Positions 6,304 through 29,324 of a DNA stretch of 64,000 nt are shown in pieces. Where the stretch lies: the NCBI GenBank assembly GCA_903904685.1, contig CAIVDS010000047.1, positions 1 to 64,000 on the forward strand. Direction: 5' to 3'. This stretch comes from an uncultured Verrucomicrobiota bacterium (GTDB lineage Bacteria; Verrucomicrobiota; Verrucomicrobiia; Opitutales; Opitutaceae). Within the stretch, counting starts at the first letter, position 1. Each line of letters opens with the position of its first letter. Below the pieces are notes generated by a model that was given only the letters and a program-made list of their open reading frames with translations, was not told the DNA's origin and searched no databases. The position numbers were made by a program, and so were the translations under genes.

Positions 6304-7641
6304 TCAGATGTGGCGGAGGAGGATGCTCTCGTAGAGCTCCTGCTTGCCGCTCTTCGGGGTGACTTCGCCCTGCTCATGGGCGATCTTGTGGAGGTCGGCG
6401 AGCGAAAGCTTGCCCTGCTCGTAGGCCTTGCCCTTGCCGGAGTTGAAGGAAGCGTAGCGGGTTTTCATCAGGCCGGGGATCTCGGACTTGGAGAGAACCT
6501 TGTCGGCGGCGATGGCGGCGCGGGCAAAAGCGTCCATGCCGGACACGTGGGCGATAAAGAGGTCGTCGAGGTCGGTCGAGTTGCGACGGATCTTGGCGTC
6601 GAAGTTGACGCCGCCGTGGGTGAAGCCGCCGGCCTTGATGATGACCATCATGGCTTCGGTGAGCTCGATCGGATCGATCGGGAACTGGTCGGTGTCCCAG
6701 CCGTTCTGCACGTCGCCGCGGTTGGCATCGACGCTGCCGAGGAGGCCGGCGTCGGCGGAGACTTGCAGCTCGTGCGGGAAGGTGTGGCCGGCGAGCGTGG
6801 CGTGGTTGACCTCGATGTTGAGCGCGAAGTCGCCGAGGAGATTGAATTCACGCAGGAAGCCGATGACGGTCGCGGCGTCGAAGTCATACTGGTGCTTGGT
6901 GGGCTCGCAGGGCTTGGGCTCGACGAAGAACTTGCCCTTGAATCCCTGGGAGCGGGCGTAGTCGCGACCGATGGTGAGGAAACGGGCGAAATGTTCGCGC
7001 TCGCGCTTCATGTCGGTGTTGAGGAGGGAGAGGTAGCCTTCGCGGCCGCCCCAGAACACGTAGCCTTCGCCGCCGAGGGCGATGGTGGCGTCGATGGCTC
7101 CCTTGAGCTGGCCGCCGGCTCGAGCAAGGACGGAGAACTCGGGGTTGGTGGACGCGCCGTTCATGAAGCGCGGGTTGCTGAAAAGGTTGGCGGTGCCCCA
7201 GAGGAGTTTCACGCCGGAAGCCGCCTGCTTCTCCTTTATGTAGGGAACGATCACGCCCATGCGTTTCTCGAACTCGGCGAGCGTGGTGCCGGCCTCGTCG
7301 ACGATGTCGGCATCGTGGAAGCAGTAGTAGGGCGTGCCGAGCTTGGTGATAAACTCGAAGGCGGCGTCAGCCTTGTCCTTGGCGCGCTGAATCGGATCGG
7401 CGGCGGAGAGCCAAGGCATCGGGCGGGTGGGCGCGCCGAACGGATCGGAGCCGTTGCCACAGAAGCTGTGCCAGTAGGAGACGGCGTAGCGCAGCCAGCT
7501 CTCGAGGGAGCGGCCGGCGACGACGCGCTTGGCATCGTAGTAGCGGAACGCGAGCGGATTGGTGCTTTCGGGGCCTTCGTAGGCGATGCGGCTAATTTTC
7601 GGGAAGTAGGTCTTAGAACCGGTGGTGAGTTTGGTGGGCAT
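6304..7641 (-). CDS. xylA: xylose isomerase
   Basis: 445 residues, matching the class II (E. coli-like) enzyme of about 440. It converts D-xylose to D-xylulose in the cytoplasm using two divalent metals. Visible motifs: catalytic His109 and Asp112 in CFHDAD, the signature YVFWGGREGY (194-203), the metal ligand Glu in FVEPKP (about 241), NIEVNHATLAGH (275-286) and LGSVDANRGD (301-310). The stop and product are intact. It lies 53 nt downstream of xylB on the same strand. A decayed second copy of its 3' end is present at 4517. Confidence 0.97.
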   Translation of the reverse strand: MPTKLTTGSKTYFPKISRIAYEGPESTNPLAFRYYDAKRVVAGRSLESWLRYAVSYWHSFCGNGSDPFGAPTRPMPWLSAADPIQRAKDKADAAFEFITKLGTPYYCFHDADIVDEAGTTLAEFEKRMGVIVPYIKEKQAASGVKLLWGTANLFSNPRFMNGASTNPEFSVLARAGGQLKGAIDATIALGGEGYVFWGGREGYLSLLNTDMKREREHFARFLTIGRDYARSQGFKGKFFVEPKPCEPTKHQYDFDAATVIGFLREFNLLGDFALNIEVNHATLAGHTFPHELQVSADAGLLGSVDANRGDVQNGWDTDQFPIDPIELTEAMMVIIKAGGFTHGGVNFDAKIRRNSTDLDDLFIAHVSGMDAFARAAIAADKVLSKSEIPGLMKTRYASFNSGKGKAYEQGKLSLADLHKIAHEQGEVTPKSGKQELYESILLRHI

Positions 7642-7694
7642 GGGAAGAGAAAAGGGGCAGTAAGAAGGGTAAATGTGGAGTTAAGAAGAGGTGA

Positions 7695-9172
7695 TCAAGC
7701 GATGGCGTGTTTCAAGGCTTTTTCCCAGCGGGCGTAGGCTTCGGAGCAGGGACCGACGAGGGCGGGATTGGGCTCGATGGTCTCAAGGACTTCGAGTCCA
7801 CGGAAGGCTTCTTCGGATGTTTTGAAAATTCCGGCGCCGAGACCGGCGGCGCGGGCGGCACCGGCGGCGCCGTCGGTGCTCACGAGCTCGATGGTAACAC
7901 CGAGCGTCGAGGCGAGCGTCTCGCGGAAGATCGGGCTGAGGAAAAGATTGGCGTTGCCCGCGCGGAGACGCTTCGGCGAGAGGCCGGTGGCCTCCATGCC
8001 TTTGATGCCGTAGCGAAAGGCGAAGGCGATGCCCTCTTGCGCGGCGCGGCAGAGGTGTCCGGGTTTGTGACGGTTGAAATCAAGTCCGAGCCACTGCGCG
8101 CCGACCTGGCGGTTGCCAAGCATGCGCTCGGAGCCGTTGCCAAAGGGAAGCACGGTGAGGCCGTCGCTGCCGGCGGGAACGGCGGCGGCAAGAGCGTTCA
8201 TCTTCTCGTAGGTCATGCCTTCGCCAAGGGTGCGGCGGAGCCAGGCGTTGAGAATGCCAGCGCCGTTGAGGCAGAGGAGCACGCCGAGACGGGGATCGGC
8301 GGCGGCGTGGTTGACGTGGGCGAAGCTGTTGACGCGCTGCTCGACATCGTAGGCGAGTTTGTCGGTGACGCCGTAAACGACGCCGGAGGTGCCGCCGGTC
8401 GCGGCGATGTCGCCGGGCTGAAGGACGTTGAGCGAAAGGCATTGTTGGGCTGGTCGCCGGCGCGGTAGGCGACGGGAATGTCGGCGGGCAAACCGAGGGC
8501 GGAGGCGACGGCAGGGAGCACGGAGGCCTGCATGCCGAAGGTGGGCGTGAGCGCGGGGAGAAGCGCTGAGTCGATGCCCCAGTGCTTGAGAAGGAAATCG
8601 GCAGGGGCGTTTTTGGAAAAATCCCAGAGCGCACCTTCGGAGAGACCGGAGGCCGTGGTGAGGGTTGCGCCGGTCAGCCGCAGGGCAAGGTAGTCGCCCG
8701 GAAGCATGATCTTGCGAATACGGGAGAAATTGGCAGGCTCGTTTTCTTGCACCCAACGGAGTTTCGAGGCGGTGAAATTTCCGGGAGAGTTGAGCAGGCG
8801 GCCGAGGCAGGTCTTGGCGCCGAGATCGGCGAAGGCCTTGGCACCGATGGAGACGGCGCGGCTGTCGCACCAGATGATGGCTGGACGGACGACTTCGTTG
8901 TTCGCATCAACAGTGACGAGACCATGCATCTGATAGGAGATGCCGATGGCGCGGACCTTTCTGGCGTCGGCTTTGGCGAGGACAACACCGATGGCCTTGA
9001 CGGCATGTTCCCACCAGACGACGGGATCCTGCTCGGCCCAGCCGGACTGTGGAGCATTGATCGGCATCTCGGCGGCGGGAGATTGCGCCGAAGAGACGAT
9101 GCGACCGGTGGCGGCATCAAGAAGGGTTGCTTTAACGGCAGAGCTGCCGAGATCGAGGCCGAGAAGAAACAT
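7695..9172 (-). pseudogene. xylB: xylulokinase, interrupted by a one-base frameshift
   Basis: Two overlapping frames together give one FGGY kinase of about 493 residues, the normal length. The N-terminal part starts at 9172 (MFLLGLDLGSSAVKATLLD, the FGGY phosphate-binding start). The C-terminal part continues with ATGGTSGVVYGV. The expected junction is GDQPNNA followed by LSLNVLQPGD; reading it needs one extra G (plus strand) at about 8438-8440, in the GG before CATTG. Everything on both sides is well conserved, so this is a very recent mutation or a sequencing/assembly error. The product would phosphorylate D-xylulose for the pentose phosphate pathway. Confidence 0.88.
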
Positions 9173-24630: not shown

Positions 24631-26169
24631 ATGCTTGCCACGATTTCGTCTGCGGCGCTTCAAGGGATCGATGCCGAACTCGTGCACGTCGAGGTTAACT
24701 CGGGGGAAACCGGCGAGCCAAAATTAATTTTGGTGGGGCTGCCGGATGCCGCGGTAAAAGAATCGGACGACCGCGTCTTCTCCGCGTTGAGCAACAGCGG
24801 TTTCAAGGCTCCGCGCACCCGCACCACCATCAACTTGGCGCCCGGCAATCTGCGCAAGGAAGGCCCGTTCTATGACCTGCCCATCGCGCTGGGCATCCTC
24901 GTGGCCACCGAGCAGATCCCCGCGGTCGATACCGCGGACTATTTGATAGCGGGGGAACTCAGCCTGTCCGGTGCCACCCGCCCCGTGCGCGGAGCTCTGG
25001 CCATCGCCAGACTGGCGAGGAAACTGGGCAAACGCGGCGTGCTCCTCCCTCCCGTTTCCGCGCAGGAGGCGGCTCTCGTCGAGGGCGTGGCCGCTTATCC
25101 GGTAAAGTCCCTTGATCAAGCCGTGCGTTTTCTTACCGGCGAAATCACCATTGCCCCGGTCGAGCACGTGACCGCCATCGGCATCACGCCCGATCCGGAA
25201 ACACGCGCGGGCGATTTTTCCGAAATCAAAGGACAACACGCCCTGCGCAGGGCCGTGGAAGTCGCCGCAGCCGGTGGTCATAATCTGCTGATCATCGGAC
25301 CCCCCGGTGCCGGCAAATCGATGGTGGCAAAACGCATCCCCGCCATCCTGCCGGATCCGACTCTGGATGAATCCCTCGAAATCCTCAGCATCCACTCCGC
25401 CGCCGGGCAAACCCTGGGCGGCGGACGCGTGTTCGGCAAACGCCCGGTGCGCGCACCGCACCATACGATTTCCGACGTGGGCCTGCTAGGCGGCGGCGCG
25501 ATTCCCGGCCCCGGCGAGATTTCCCTCGCCCACCACGGCGTGCTCTTTCTCGACGAACTTCCCGAGTTTAAACGCAGCGCCCTTGAAGTGCTCCGCCAAC
25601 CGCTCGAAGACGGGGTGGTCTCCATTTCCCGCAGTGCGGGCAAAGTCACCCTCCCATGCAGCTTCATGCTCGTCGCGGCGATGAACCCCTGCCCCTGCGG
25701 CTACCTCGGCGATCCCCGTCACGAATGCCGCTGCGCCCCCGCCCAGATCCAGCGCTATCGGGCCCGCATCAGTGGTCCGCTGCTGGACCGCATCGACCTG
25801 CATGTCGAGGCCCCGGCCTTGTCCATCACCGAACTCCGTGACGAAAAATCCGGCGAGACCTCCGCCGCCATTCGCCAGCGCGTGCAAACCGCCCGTCGCC
25901 GTCAACTGGCCCGCTTTCATGGCACCTGCACGCCGGCAAACGCCCGCATGACGCATGCGCAAATCCGTTCGCATTGCGCCATCGACGCTTCGCTGGGCGA
26001 CCTCCTGCAGCAGGCCATGGAACAACTTTCGCTCTCGGCGCGGGCTTATGATCGCATCCTCAAAGTCTCCCGCACCATTGCCGATTTGGCGGCTTCGGAG
26101 CGCATTGAAGCCCCCCACCTGCTCGAAGCCATCCAATACCGGAGTCTGGACCGGAACCTTTTTTACTAG
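24631..26169 (+). CDS. comM: YifB/ComM family Mg-chelatase-like AAA+ ATPase
   Basis: 512 residues, family length. The N-terminal ChlI-like (Lon-type) domain starts [23 protein letters not shown]. The AAA+ core has Walker [16 protein letters not shown], Walker [14 protein letters not shown] and sensor [17 protein letters not shown] Mg_chelatase_C domain closes the protein ([19 protein letters not shown]). ComM is a helicase promoting branch migration in natural transformation, which fits a genome with type IV pilus motors close by, although the link is inference. The repeat region begins 20 nt after its stop. Confidence 0.93.
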
Positions 26170-26189: not shown

Positions 26190-26567
26190 GAACTTTTGGG
26201 TGCTAAAATCGAACGGATTCTCTCTAAAATTGAAACGATTCTTCATAACAATGAAGCGACTTGAGATAAAAAGTAATGGATTATCGCCAAAACGGAACGG
26301 ATTCACGCTAATTTTGAACGGATTCTGTCTAAAAAGTAAGCGATCTCTGTTAATTAGTAACCGACAGTAACAAAAAATGAACCGACAGCTTCTAAGAATG
26401 AAGCGATCTTTTTCAAAGTTGAACCAAGACCACTTGATAATGAACAAATTCAATCTGTAATCGAAAGGATTTTATCCAAAAAGTAACCCACACAGCCTAG
26501 AATTGAAGAACCCTTTGTTAATAATAAAGGAATACAGGCTAATAAGTAACGGATACAGGCCAAAATT
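26190..26567. repeat. array A: 18 degenerate 21-nt units, no indels
   Basis: Beginning 20 nt after comM, 18 consecutive units of exactly 21 nt can be laid out (26190, 26211, 26232 ... 26547). Each unit begins GAA or TAA, usually followed by CGGATT or CGAT, then a variable centre, then an A-rich tail (TAAAAAG or TAAAATT); an approximate consensus is GAACGGATTC-N4-TAAAAT. No two units are identical, yet the period never slips. The array is AT-rich (about one third G+C per unit) in GC-rich DNA. The layout was done by hand; a nineteenth, weak unit may follow at 26568. Confidence 0.85.
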
Positions 26568-26624
26568 GATGGAAAACATCTGACTTGGACACGTTGGCGG
26601 TCATAGAACCTTAAAAATCACAGA

Positions 26625-26729
26625 GTCGGGATACAATTTTGTCGATTCGGGAAGCCATTCCGCCCTGTCGGATTATGATTTTATGAAGTCGGGAAACAAT
26701 TATACCCTGTCAGGAAACAATCAAACAGA
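26625..26729. repeat. array B: five 21-nt units with a different consensus
   Basis: Five units of exactly 21 nt start at 26625, 26646, 26667, 26688 and 26709. The shared part is GTCGGGAAACAAT (best in the fourth and fifth units) and the remaining bases are variable, often ending CCCT. The consensus is unrelated to array A, but the period is the same. A sixth unit may overlap the start of the small ORF at 26740. About 57 nt of weakly periodic sequence separates A from B. Confidence 0.75.
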
Positions 26730-26739
26730 GTCGCCCACG

Positions 26740-26886
26740 ATGTCCGAAGAAATTCCCACCGCCGGCGCGGAGTCCGCGCCCGCACGCGCCAAAACCTGGT
26801 GCACCCGCTCCGCCGAGGTCACGGAACTGCGCCGCAAGCTGAATCCGTTACTTTTTAACAGGTTTCCGTTACGAAATATCTATTAA
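26740..26886 (+). CDS. small GC-rich orphan ORF between repeat arrays, possibly a truncated gene
   Basis: From ATG 26740 the frame gives MSEEIPTAGAESAPARAKTW, then CTRSAEVTELRRKLN, then residues encoded by array C. The first 35 codons are GC-rich and look like ordinary coding sequence (an acidic/Ala-rich start and the beginning of a coiled-coil helix), quite unlike the flanking AT-rich repeats. The frame then runs straight into repeat units and stops after them. I read it as the 5' end of a gene whose remainder was replaced or never present. No function can be assigned. Confidence 0.35.
   Translation: MSEEIPTAGAESAPARAKTWCTRSAEVTELRRKLNPLLFNRFPLRNIY
26842..26883 (-). repeat. array C: two units of array A in inverted orientation
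   Basis: Two 21-nt units (26842-26862 and 26863-26883) contain CCGTTAC and match array A when reverse-complemented: TAACGGATTC, then TAAAAAG in the same spacing as several array A units. They lie directly after the GC-rich part of the small ORF, so that part is bracketed by array A on the left and an inverted copy on the right. Confidence 0.7.
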
Positions 26887-26906
26887 ACATCTCCCCGACT
26901 ACCTCT

Positions 26907-27178
26907 GATATATCCCAGATTACCTCTGGTGAAGCCCAGATCAGCGTTGGGGAAGGGTTTTTCGACGCCGATGAAAGGTTTTTTGGCATTGGTGGAGGGT
27001 TTTCCCCTTCCGATGAAGCCCAGGACGCCTCCGATGCAGACTTTCTCTCCTTCGATGCAGTCTTTTTCGGTTCCAGCGGAGTCTTTTCGGCTTCGATGAA
27101 ACCTTGGACGACTCTGGTGAAGGCTTTTTCTGCCGAGGTGGAGGTTTTGAGGGCTCCGATGCAGCCAAAGAAGGCTCC
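26907..27178. repeat. array D: 13 degenerate 21-nt units
   Basis: Thirteen units start at 26907, 26928, 26949, 26970, 26991, 27012, 27033, 27054, 27075, 27095, 27116, 27137 and 27158. Twelve are exactly 21 nt; the one at 27075 is 20 nt. Each begins GATG or GGTG followed by AAG or CAG, a T-rich centre (CTTTTTC) and a CTCC or TTC end. Consensus about GATGAAG-N2-TTTTTCG-N2-TCC. Base composition is much more GC-rich than array A, so the families differ in sequence and composition but share the period. Confidence 0.85.
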
Positions 27179-27200
27179 ATCATATCCTGCCTGCGCGTCG

Positions 27201-27284
27201 GGAAATCCCCGCCGGGTATTGGTTAAACCCGTTCGCGTGCCGGTTAATCCTGACGGGACGTTGGTTCACCCCCCTGCCCTATCC
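27201..27284. repeat. array E: four 21-nt units
   Basis: Units at 27201, 27222, 27243 and 27264, three of them starting GTTAA or GTTCA followed by CCC/TCC and ending with a G-rich part and TTG. The last unit fades into unique sequence about 65 nt before the stop codon of the TPR gene. The family is short and its boundaries are approximate. Confidence 0.6.
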
Positions 27285-27350: not shown

Positions 27351-29324
27351 CTATTTCGCCGAAACCGGCGGTTCCCAGGCGGAAAGCAGTCGCTTGGCCG
27401 GAGGATAGTCGGGTGTCTTGCGCAACACTTCCTTGAGGAGCAACCGGGCCGCCTCCTTGCAGTTGTTCGCATACAAATCACGGGCCAGCACAATGCCATG
27501 GGCCGCACGATCACGACTGCCATTGAAGTATTCATTCACCACCATGCGAAAGGCCAGCATGTCGCCGATTCGTCCGTTGAAACGGATTTCCTCGTATTGA
27601 ATGTCATCCTCGCGCCCTCGAAACCACGACGGCTTCGCCAGACGCAGGTCAAGAATCTGACGCAAGCCCGCGCCGAAGTCCTTTTTTTGGTCAAACTCAA
27701 CCAACCGTTTGAAGAACACGTCCGCGGAAAGCTCCTCGTGGACAATCACAGGTTGCGGCACCACCGCCGGTGCGGGCGCCCTGACGGAGAACAACTTTAT
27801 TTTTTGCGTCTGGGCGGCGACTTCCGTTTTGGCCAGCTCGGCGTCAATTTCATCACGCCAGCCCTTGAGCGTACGGTTCTCAGGATAAACATTCTGGGCA
27901 TAGACGACCAACAAACGTGCGGTGGCCGGCCGCCCGGCACGGCGCAAGATGTCGACGAATTCACGATCCGTCTTAAATGACAACTGGCGCTTCGAGACAA
28001 AATCAATCAGATGGGATTGCACGCCCTCGGACGGATTGATCGCCGCCTTGATCAAACGTCCCATCAACTCGATCCAGAGAGTCGTGGCGAGATCGGGGGT
28101 TTTCAAAGAGTCCTTGAGAGTGTTCAGATCCTCCAGCGCCCCCGCCCAATCCGATGCGTCCAGCAGCACCTTGATGCGCGCCAGACGATAAGGCTCCAAG
28201 GCAAACCCCTGCTCGCGGGCGTGGTCGATGAGACGCTCGATCTGGGGCAATGCGGATATCTCGGCCAGCGGGGAAACAAGCGTGGCCACCGCCTCTGGCG
28301 AACCGCCAAAGCGCAGCAGAAATTGCTCGATGCTCTGATCCGCGTCCTTGCGCCGCCCGGCCAGATAGCGCTGGGTGATTCCATAAATGTAAGGATGCGG
28401 ATCGGCCGGGTCCAGTGCGCGCAGTTGATCGATGGCCTTGTCCATTTCGTCCAACCGACCGGTCTCGCGAAACGCCCGCACCTGCAGGCGCAGCACTTGC
28501 GGATCAAGGCCGGCGATCTCGCGCCAGTTCTGAAGGAACGCCACGGCTTCCTGCGTTCGGCCTTCCTTTAACAGGGCGAGGACCTTGAACTCCTTGAAGA
28601 ACGCACGATCACTCCCTTTGTCCGCATCAACCAAGCGCAGCACCTCGCCCGTGCGACCGGCCGCCATGAGGGCGCTCAGTTTTTGCTGCATGATCTCCTG
28701 GTATTCCGCAGTCTGCCCCAGGGTGTAGGAAAGCTGGGCAAGGGCCACGTTGCAGGTGGATATCCACCAATCATAATCCTCGCTGTCGGCCGCCAGCGTG
28801 CACACATGCCGGACATAGGCACGGCCCGGATAGCCGAAATCAAAGGCATCGCGTAGCAGTTGCTTCGCCTGCTTGCGCTGATTCGCCGCCACATAAAAAC
28901 TGGCCAGTTCGATACGCGCTTTGGTGGCCTCGGGATAGCGATTGACGCCTAGCTGCAGCTTCATCGCCCCCTCACGCCATTTGTGCTTACGGAGATCATC
29001 CAGGCCTTCGGAGATATACGCCTGGCCGCGCAGTTTTTGGATTCGAGACCAATGCGAGGGCAGCACGAGGTCCTTATAGGCCACAAAATTATAGGGGCGC
29101 CGATCCAGCACCAGCCAAAGCATGCCCGCGCCCATAAAATACGCCACCAGCGTCAGCATCCCCAGCCATGCGAACAAGCCGCGCAAGCTGATCAACAGTT
29201 CGTTCGAACGCACTCGGCTCGCACTCCCCGGATGACGATCATAGAGCACAAATAAACCGGCGCGCCACTTCGTGGCGAATATCCGCGAGGTTCCCCAAGT
29301 GAGTTTGAGTTGAGGGAGTGCCAT
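27351..29324 (-). CDS. membrane-anchored TPR-like repeat protein
   Basis: 657 residues. A cytoplasmic basic N-terminus (about 1-48) precedes one membrane segment (LRGLFAWLGMLTLVAYFMGAGMLWLVL, about 47-73). The rest is helical repeats of TPR type, for example AFFKEFKVLALLKEGRTQEAVAFL, VLRLQVRAFRETGRLDEMDKAI and a C-terminal AARLLLKEVLRKTPDYPPAKRLL. This would place a large protein-interaction scaffold on the far side of the membrane. It starts 20 nt after smc on the same strand and is probably co-transcribed. The partner is unknown. Confidence 0.7.
   Translation of the reverse strand: MALPQLKLTWGTSRIFATKWRAGLFVLYDRHPGSASRVRSNELLISLRGLFAWLGMLTLVAYFMGAGMLWLVLDRRPYNFVAYKDLVLPSHWSRIQKLRGQAYISEGLDDLRKHKWREGAMKLQLGVNRYPEATKARIELASFYVAANQRKQAKQLLRDAFDFGYPGRAYVRHVCTLAADSEDYDWWISTCNVALAQLSYTLGQTAEYQEIMQQKLSALMAAGRTGEVLRLVDADKGSDRAFFKEFKVLALLKEGRTQEAVAFLQNWREIAGLDPQVLRLQVRAFRETGRLDEMDKAIDQLRALDPADPHPYIYGITQRYLAGRRKDADQSIEQFLLRFGGSPEAVATLVSPLAEISALPQIERLIDHAREQGFALEPYRLARIKVLLDASDWAGALEDLNTLKDSLKTPDLATTLWIELMGRLIKAAINPSEGVQSHLIDFVSKRQLSFKTDREFVDILRRAGRPATARLLVVYAQNVYPENRTLKGWRDEIDAELAKTEVAAQTQKIKLFSVRAPAPAVVPQPVIVHEELSADVFFKRLVEFDQKKDFGAGLRQILDLRLAKPSWFRGREDDIQYEEIRFNGRIGDMLAFRMVVNEYFNGSRDRAAHGIVLARDLYANNCKEAARLLLKEVLRKTPDYPPAKRLLSAWEPPVSAK

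Follow-up and report, generated by a model that had tools for sequence, protein, structure and literature searches.

A dispersed genetic element, composed of one or more degenerate arrays of 21-bp direct repeats followed by a gene, is present in many copies in an Opitutaceae genome. The gene product is either an all-helical protein of ~240–290 aa or a MarR/ArsR-like winged-helix protein of ~103 aa. The window, which is the whole stretch of 64,000 nucleotides that was analysed, carries a rearranged, gene-dead copy of this element. The arrays evolve by substitution and, in large part, by gaining or losing whole units; their period is conserved but their sequence is not. Judging from sequence comparison, we read the element as a putative phased DNA-binding array that would control the downstream gene, and give this reading a probability of roughly 0.4.

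The region at 26190–27284 of the window has a lag-21 identity of 0.482, compared with 0.252 ± 0.013 in 200 dinucleotide shuffles (z 17.6), and shows additional peaks at lags 42, 63, and 84. The 21-nt period proposed in the initial annotation is thus real. When the 64 kb was scanned with 160-nt windows at lags 9–69, the best-lag identity exceeded the threshold of 0.47 only in this region and in one other place, at lag 33. Tandem Repeats Finder returned nothing beyond ~2-copy pieces of the region. Laid out in rows, the region contains ~18 in-phase units of array A, 5–6 of B, 13–14 of D, and 4 of E, with two inverted A units at ~26846–26880 and a single 20-nt row in array D near 27081. The counts given earlier (18, 5, 13, and 4, plus two inverted A units) are correct within about one unit. 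The companion claim that every family has period 21 holds for A, B, and D individually; array E is weak by itself, with an identity of 0.473 that does not reach the 0.581 marking the 99% any-lag limit of the shuffles. The four arrays have no detectable relation to each other. The ~100 bp separating arrays B and D is a gene remnant rather than an array, and 26755–26840 has no periodicity of its own (z 1.4).

Table 1. Positions of the arrays, the gene remnant and the flanking genes in the window, and of 7-nt repeat runs on other stretches
Feature	Position	Strand	Description and evidence
Array A	26202–26579	+	~18 units of 21 nt, consensus GATTCTAGCTAAAAATGAACG (any phase); lag-21 z 10.8, row layout
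Array B	26612–26740	+	~6 units, consensus ACAATTTTACCGAGTCGGGAA, reaches the start codon of the gene remnant; lag-21 z 5.4, profile fit
Helical-protein gene remnant	26740–26841	+	blastn pieces with 80, 84, and 93% identity to the intact C113 gene
Inverted array A start (two units) and A/D junction	26839–26888	−	opposite orientation on C92 and C87
Array D	26889–27185	+	~13–14 units, consensus GCCTCCGATGAAGCCTTTTTC; lag-21 z 11.7
Array E	27200–27275	+	~4 units; lag-21 z 3.5; region recurs beside the C113 element
comM (Mg chelatase-like), flanking, outside the element	24631–26169	+	Pfam PF01078, PF13541, PF13335
TPR protein gene, flanking, outside the element	27351–29324	−	Pfam TPR_19, TPR_14
7-nt repeat runs	L015 ~2544–2671 (−); L026 2018–2269; L010 ~6490–6530; L064 204–452

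The genome that contains the window is 3.23 Mb in 114 contigs, which are designated by C-numbers; G-numbers refer to other genomes and L-numbers to DNA stretches. A DNA search of this genome with the array region finds clear relatives on C92, C87, and C113. Array D is 94% identical over 210 nt to the C92 copy (26850–27185 compared), the array E region matches at 83% over 77 nt beside the C113 element, and array A is grouped with arrays on C87 and C113 by profile comparison. Because related arrays recur on other contigs, a local assembly artefact, one of the outcomes considered beforehand, is refuted. The C113 element is intact. It runs from E and D, both in reverse, through A and B to a 289-aa open frame that begins with ~60 codons of in-frame 21-nt repeats. 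The gene remnant in the window retains an N-terminal stretch, to which a short segment from close to the C terminus is joined; the middle and the 3′ end are missing. The inverted start of array A lies 3′ of the remnant and is followed by D and E. A GC-rich inverted-repeat element (GGTAGGGCGAGGCGTCCCCG...), REP-like by eye, is present on either side of the C113 element (L011:5741–5866 and 7631–7720).

The initial annotation placed the arrays after comM, which is true of the window. However, comM was not found adjacent to the TPR-protein gene in the 10 genomes of the same genus in which its downstream side is readable (~1.0–1.5 kb); an eleventh ended at a contig end. Thus, the position is not conserved in relatives. 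Their rearrangement also defeated a search for an empty site by comM synteny.

Counted by hand, the genome contains 39 array places. Helical genes accompany 9 of them, winged-helix genes 8, and gene remnants 4 (the window, C49, C112, and C12); the other 18 have no recognisable gene or are cut by a contig end. A sample of 20 stretches of the genome (five all N, the others totalling 224,755 letters) contributed three more strong arrays. We fitted 38 arrays with a cyclic 21-column profile. The best lag among lags 5–40 is 21 in all 38, a set chosen by its 21-nt signal or a family gene and not an unbiased census.

The sequences of the arrays are diverse. Among the first 28 arrays, compared in all phases and on both strands, 13 of 378 pairs score above z 4 and 7 between z 3 and 4. 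Single linkage at z > 4 places 37 arrays in 21 sequence groups, the mosaic C85 array being excluded; one group is coding and corresponds to the N terminus of the C113 protein. Two groups span helical and winged-helix genes, always on the same strand. One joins the helical-gene array of L018 to the winged-helix array of C39, and the other joins the helical-gene arrays of L021 and L024 to the winged-helix arrays of C31, C114, and C99.

An orthologous winged-helix locus is found on C56 and in G006. The upstream flank is 85.5% identical over 1092 nt, and the leader and gene are 75% identical over 424 nt. The two arrays between these shared flanks do not align, yet both have period 21 (in G006, 0.443 versus 0.282, z 5.35, 0 of 2000 shuffles). 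The G006 consensus scores z 1.5 against C56 and 5.0 against C100, so some ancestral resemblance of the arrays may remain.

In the more similar array pairs, whole-unit gaps predominate (21, 21+20, 21, 41, and 21+1+21 nt; also 25, 1+125, and 1+1 nt), and the gaps in dissimilar pairs are irregular. Array and gene can be copied as a unit, since C114 and C99 are 90–91% identical in array, leader, and gene and 56% identical, that is, unrelated, downstream. They have also reassorted: C31 and C99 are 97.7% identical in the array (173 nt) and 92.3% in the gene, and C31 and C114 are 96.2% identical in the gene and 91.3% in the array. Because all 21 groups keep lag 21 and the C56 and G006 arrays have diverged beyond alignment, the earlier proposal of a conserved period without a conserved sequence is borne out.

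The arrays occupy a fixed place relative to the genes. We examined up to 900 nt before each gene in 147-nt windows at lags 15–30. All 12 helical-family genes that are complete or nearly so have an array upstream, namely nine from this genome (that of C14 is cut at the 3′ end) and those of G010, G011, and G154; a tenth own gene, on C43, starts at a contig end and is outside this count. The best window has a lag-21 identity of 0.51–0.86, above all other lags. An upstream array is likewise found for 9 of 9 winged-helix genes, with a lag-21 identity of 0.48–0.83. None of 23 readable downstream stretches, from genes of all kinds, contains an array. Lag-21 identity downstream never exceeds 0.44, a narrow margin from the weakest upstream array, 0.48 in G006. 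On the terms of the upstream test, 18 of 921 background stretches of 900 nt (~2%), taken from the window and the sample at a step of 300, reach 0.48. Thirteen of the 18 are arrays known already, and five are weaker places on L091, L108, and L109, where the best lags nearby fall on other multiples of three.

The picture is mixed for fragments and distant relatives of the helical genes. Gene fragments in relatives have an array at G003 and G066, and none was seen at G250, G008, and G033. In the own genome, a fragment on C49 has an array, one on C42 has none, and one on C4 shows just a 39-bp match. A distant helical family was reached via G144 (L039, array present). Arrays accompany two of its four long members, both in G514, and are absent from those of G332 and G015; three more fragments in G332 have no visible array.

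The helical protein encoded on C113, P0001, has nine more long paralogues in the genome. It has no Pfam or NCBIfam match that reaches the cut-off, and six members and distant relatives of the family are likewise below the cut-offs. An AlphaFold2 model of the L018 protein, built on a 15-row alignment, is predicted to be all helix with two helices of ~55 residues (pLDDT 76.5, pTM 0.50). A Foldseek search with the fold gave no match with E < 0.001 in PDB or BFVD. At E 0.001, 10 of 252 genomes from the taxonomic family contain this protein family, the own genome included; at E 0.01 it is found in 9 of 387 genomes across the phylum, several of these weak. Its distribution is patchy, and the sole named record that matches is an Opitutaceae MAG. 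A mobile vehicle was considered and dropped: the plasmids searched contain no relatives of the L018 or L067 proteins, and the viral contigs searched contain none of A2.

The winged-helix family has eight copies in the genome, one cut by a contig end, and one in G006; it was detected in 2 of 252 genomes of the taxonomic family. The C100 array, for example, precedes a 102-aa winged-helix gene that is followed by genes for a C5 methyltransferase and an HNH protein. The protein matches PF12802 with an E value of 1.7e-5 and 25.3 bits, slightly below the 27-bit cut-off. Its structure model has a pLDDT of 67 and retrieves MarR/ArsR chains with Foldseek at probability 1.00, the best E value being 3.2e-3 and none below 0.001. 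PADLOC matches it weakly to CARF/Csa3 (0.0016 and 0.0051). The most variable 10-residue stretch among the paralogues, with an identity of 0.41 versus 0.71 overall, is the start of the predicted recognition helix. Such variation would fit a changing specificity. The leader of ~105 nt between array and start codon is 67–96% identical in the nine pairs compared. In L014, L017, and L020, the last ~130 nt before the gene form strong predicted stems of −48 to −49 kcal/mol. This leader has no Rfam match; a further occurrence of its start lies at the end of contig C70.

The preferred reading is that each array forms a homotypic series of binding sites spaced by two helical turns. A protein would assemble on a single face of the DNA ahead of the gene and would control its expression, by cooperative repression, by silencing, or as a nucleation platform. 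The most likely candidates for this protein are the winged-helix paralogues, and selection would maintain the phase, each array drifting together with the protein that binds it. This reading is favoured because the arrays lie upstream, lag 21 is best in all 38 fitted arrays across 21 groups and is kept at the C56 and G006 locus, conservation within units has no 3-nt component and has excess power at 10.5 bp, one of the two gene types encodes a winged helix that varies most at the start of its predicted recognition helix, and some array groups are shared between the gene types on the same strand. It is weakened by the marginal standing of the 10.5-bp signal, the lack of palindromes, array similarity that follows the recognition helix less well than the remainder of the protein, the small number of cross-type groups, and the detection of the winged-helix family in just 2 of 252 genomes. 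A phased DNA-binding scaffold is the best of the three guesses first made about the region and is retained as a candidate.

Helical phasing of the arrays is suggestive. Conservation within units shows excess power at 10.5 bp (0.178 versus 0.100 ± 0.020, 2 of 5000), a signal that becomes marginal (20 of 400) once the null also matches neighbour correlation. The A+T content of the units has no 10.5-bp signal. In 21 array families it has excess power at 7 nt (0.193 versus 0.099, 0 of 2000), one of twenty components tested. A hidden 7-nt sub-unit was rejected, as base identity at multiples of 7 is not raised (156 of 500). Palindromic operators were set aside, only 1 of 38 arrays being palindromic at z 3.0, and so was A-tract curvature, several consensuses having no A-tracts by eye. 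Across 21 pairs from seven winged-helix proteins, array similarity correlates with the recognition helix at r 0.46 and with the remainder of the protein at r 0.84, so a match of recognition helix to array was discarded. For most arrays of helical genes, A, B, D, and E among them, there is no winged-helix partner with a matching array, and helical genes with arrays also occur in genomes without the winged-helix family.

Two known arrangements resemble such a row of sites. Plasmid iterons and par centromeres, bound by Rep and ParR (parC), are rows of ~11–22 bp direct repeats upstream of the gene for a DNA-binding protein. The present arrays are similar in that their direct repeats do not exceed about two helical turns (21 in all 38 fitted), in lying upstream of a gene, and in the suggestive phasing. 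They differ in being chromosomal, in 39 places and with 21 unrelated sequences. No replication initiator, partition ATPase, or ParA/ParM was seen among the neighbours, and the products are unclassified helical or winged-helix proteins. By these membership tests the element is not a plasmid iteron or par locus, though by analogy it may work like one. Autoregulated MarR/ArsR operators are usually one or two palindromes before a winged-helix gene. The nine winged-helix copies likewise have their gene directly behind candidate operators. The difference is that there are ~8–20 asymmetric direct repeats here, and that arrays also precede the unrelated helical-protein genes, whose product is not a winged helix.

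The main rival to a DNA-binding row is a mutational process with a 21-nt ruler, which we consider doubtful. DNA would be duplicated in 21-nt steps whatever its sequence, perhaps by the element's own protein or by repair synthesis; arrays would be born in the element, then decay, and would be selfish or neutral. This rival takes in the replication or recombination product suggested in the initial annotation. It would account for one period across 21 sequence groups, for the same period in degenerate arrays and near-identical ones (lag-21 identity 0.92 upstream of G514b), and for the extension of the repeats into the coding part on C113. The C100 and C96 loci also agree with it, their array cores differing far more than the gene and flanks. 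Over the 113 nt that precede the array core they differ by three mismatches; identity is 96.2% in the leader and 99.3% in the gene (141 nt). The arrays are 79.9% identical with a 21-nt gap, certain columns are changed preferentially, and none of the ten core units of C96 is identical to any C100 unit. However, we know of no enzyme that duplicates DNA in 21-nt steps, and none of such kind was found in this analysis. Conserved and variable columns within units suggest that sequence is constrained too, and copying of existing 21-nt units would preserve the period equally well.

Ordinary functionless minisatellites, descended from one old 21-nt array and carried with multi-copy genes, are an unlikely source of the pattern. 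Like minisatellites or VNTRs and intergenic direct repeats such as STAR, the arrays gain and lose tandem units whole. The degeneracy of the units, the many arrays without a recognisable gene, and the seven distant between-group resemblances at z between 3 and 4 are as such a descent would have them. However, unit length does not vary from locus to locus as in VNTRs (38 of 38 at 21, in arrays picked by the 21-nt signal or gene), and the arrays, unlike both minisatellites and STAR, keep one period over 21 groups and a constant position ahead of two unrelated gene families. A neutral array as diverged as those of C56 and G006 would be expected to lose phase through small indels, and these unalignable arrays persist in theirs.

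It is improbable that the units are transcribed and processed into guide or small RNAs. Each unit has constant and variable columns and a protein gene adjoins the array, but 15 arrays show no consistent RNA fold (mean z −0.33 and −0.35; single outliers in both directions, L021 −4.0 and L014 +3.4). The units have no Rfam match, and neither a Nop domain, a Cas protein, nor a nuclease was detected in the helical proteins. For the Nop domain, Pfam was searched up to E 10 with P0001 and up to E 1 with six others; among seven array neighbours scanned in PADLOC, no Cas-family protein was found. CRISPR arrays also adjoin genes; the present units are contiguous and degenerate, without exact repeats and unique spacers, and there are no cas genes. 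TIGR arrays have alternating edge and loop repeats of 8–12 nt, 9-nt spacers, and 36-nt units, and belong with a Nop-domain protein (PMC12045711). The likeness to TIGR-Tas lies in an array of short units with constant and variable parts beside one protein gene, and the difference in the 21-nt unit and the lack of a Nop domain here. By membership tests the element is neither CRISPR nor TIGR.

That the arrays encode heptapeptide repeats, present or decayed, is the least credible reading: 21 nt is seven codons, open frames span the arrays, and the C113 gene has in-frame repeats, but conservation within units has no codon-period component (3-nt power 0.070 versus 0.100), the array ORFs have no Pfam match, and open frames are expected because the period is a multiple of three, so the heptad peptide region first suggested is unsupported for the non-coding arrays, with the C113 repeats as the exception.

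That a 21-letter spacing persists while the letters change suggests that the arrays serve as a kind of ruler, a role as yet unnamed. More tentatively, the arrays may represent a new class of bacterial element, in which unit length rather than sequence would be heritable and functional. A protein or process would read or write 21-bp steps, array cores would be renewed quickly, and similar arrays would serve two unrelated effector families. We found no description of such an array and gene element in openly licensed PMC full texts; its newness is a judgement and not proof, because these papers were the extent of the literature search. If length is selected or written independently of sequence, the arrays are a natural DNA ruler. 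Such a ruler would imply a protein lattice that tolerates drift of letters but not of phase, or a process that generates repeats with an inherent step length. The arrays also provide an entry point to two gene families present in many copies, of which the all-helical one has no match in Pfam or NCBIfam.

Two minor features are seen beside the arrays. Runs of 7-nt repeats of the TTCACCC/TTCACTC type, with lag 14, adjoin some 21-nt arrays (Table 1). Two array places adjoin restriction-modification genes, at L108:834–3118 (C100) and L157:423–1094 (C21, near 73.5 kb); the neighbour on C21 is an Eco29kI-type endonuclease (PF09517, 1.6e-69).
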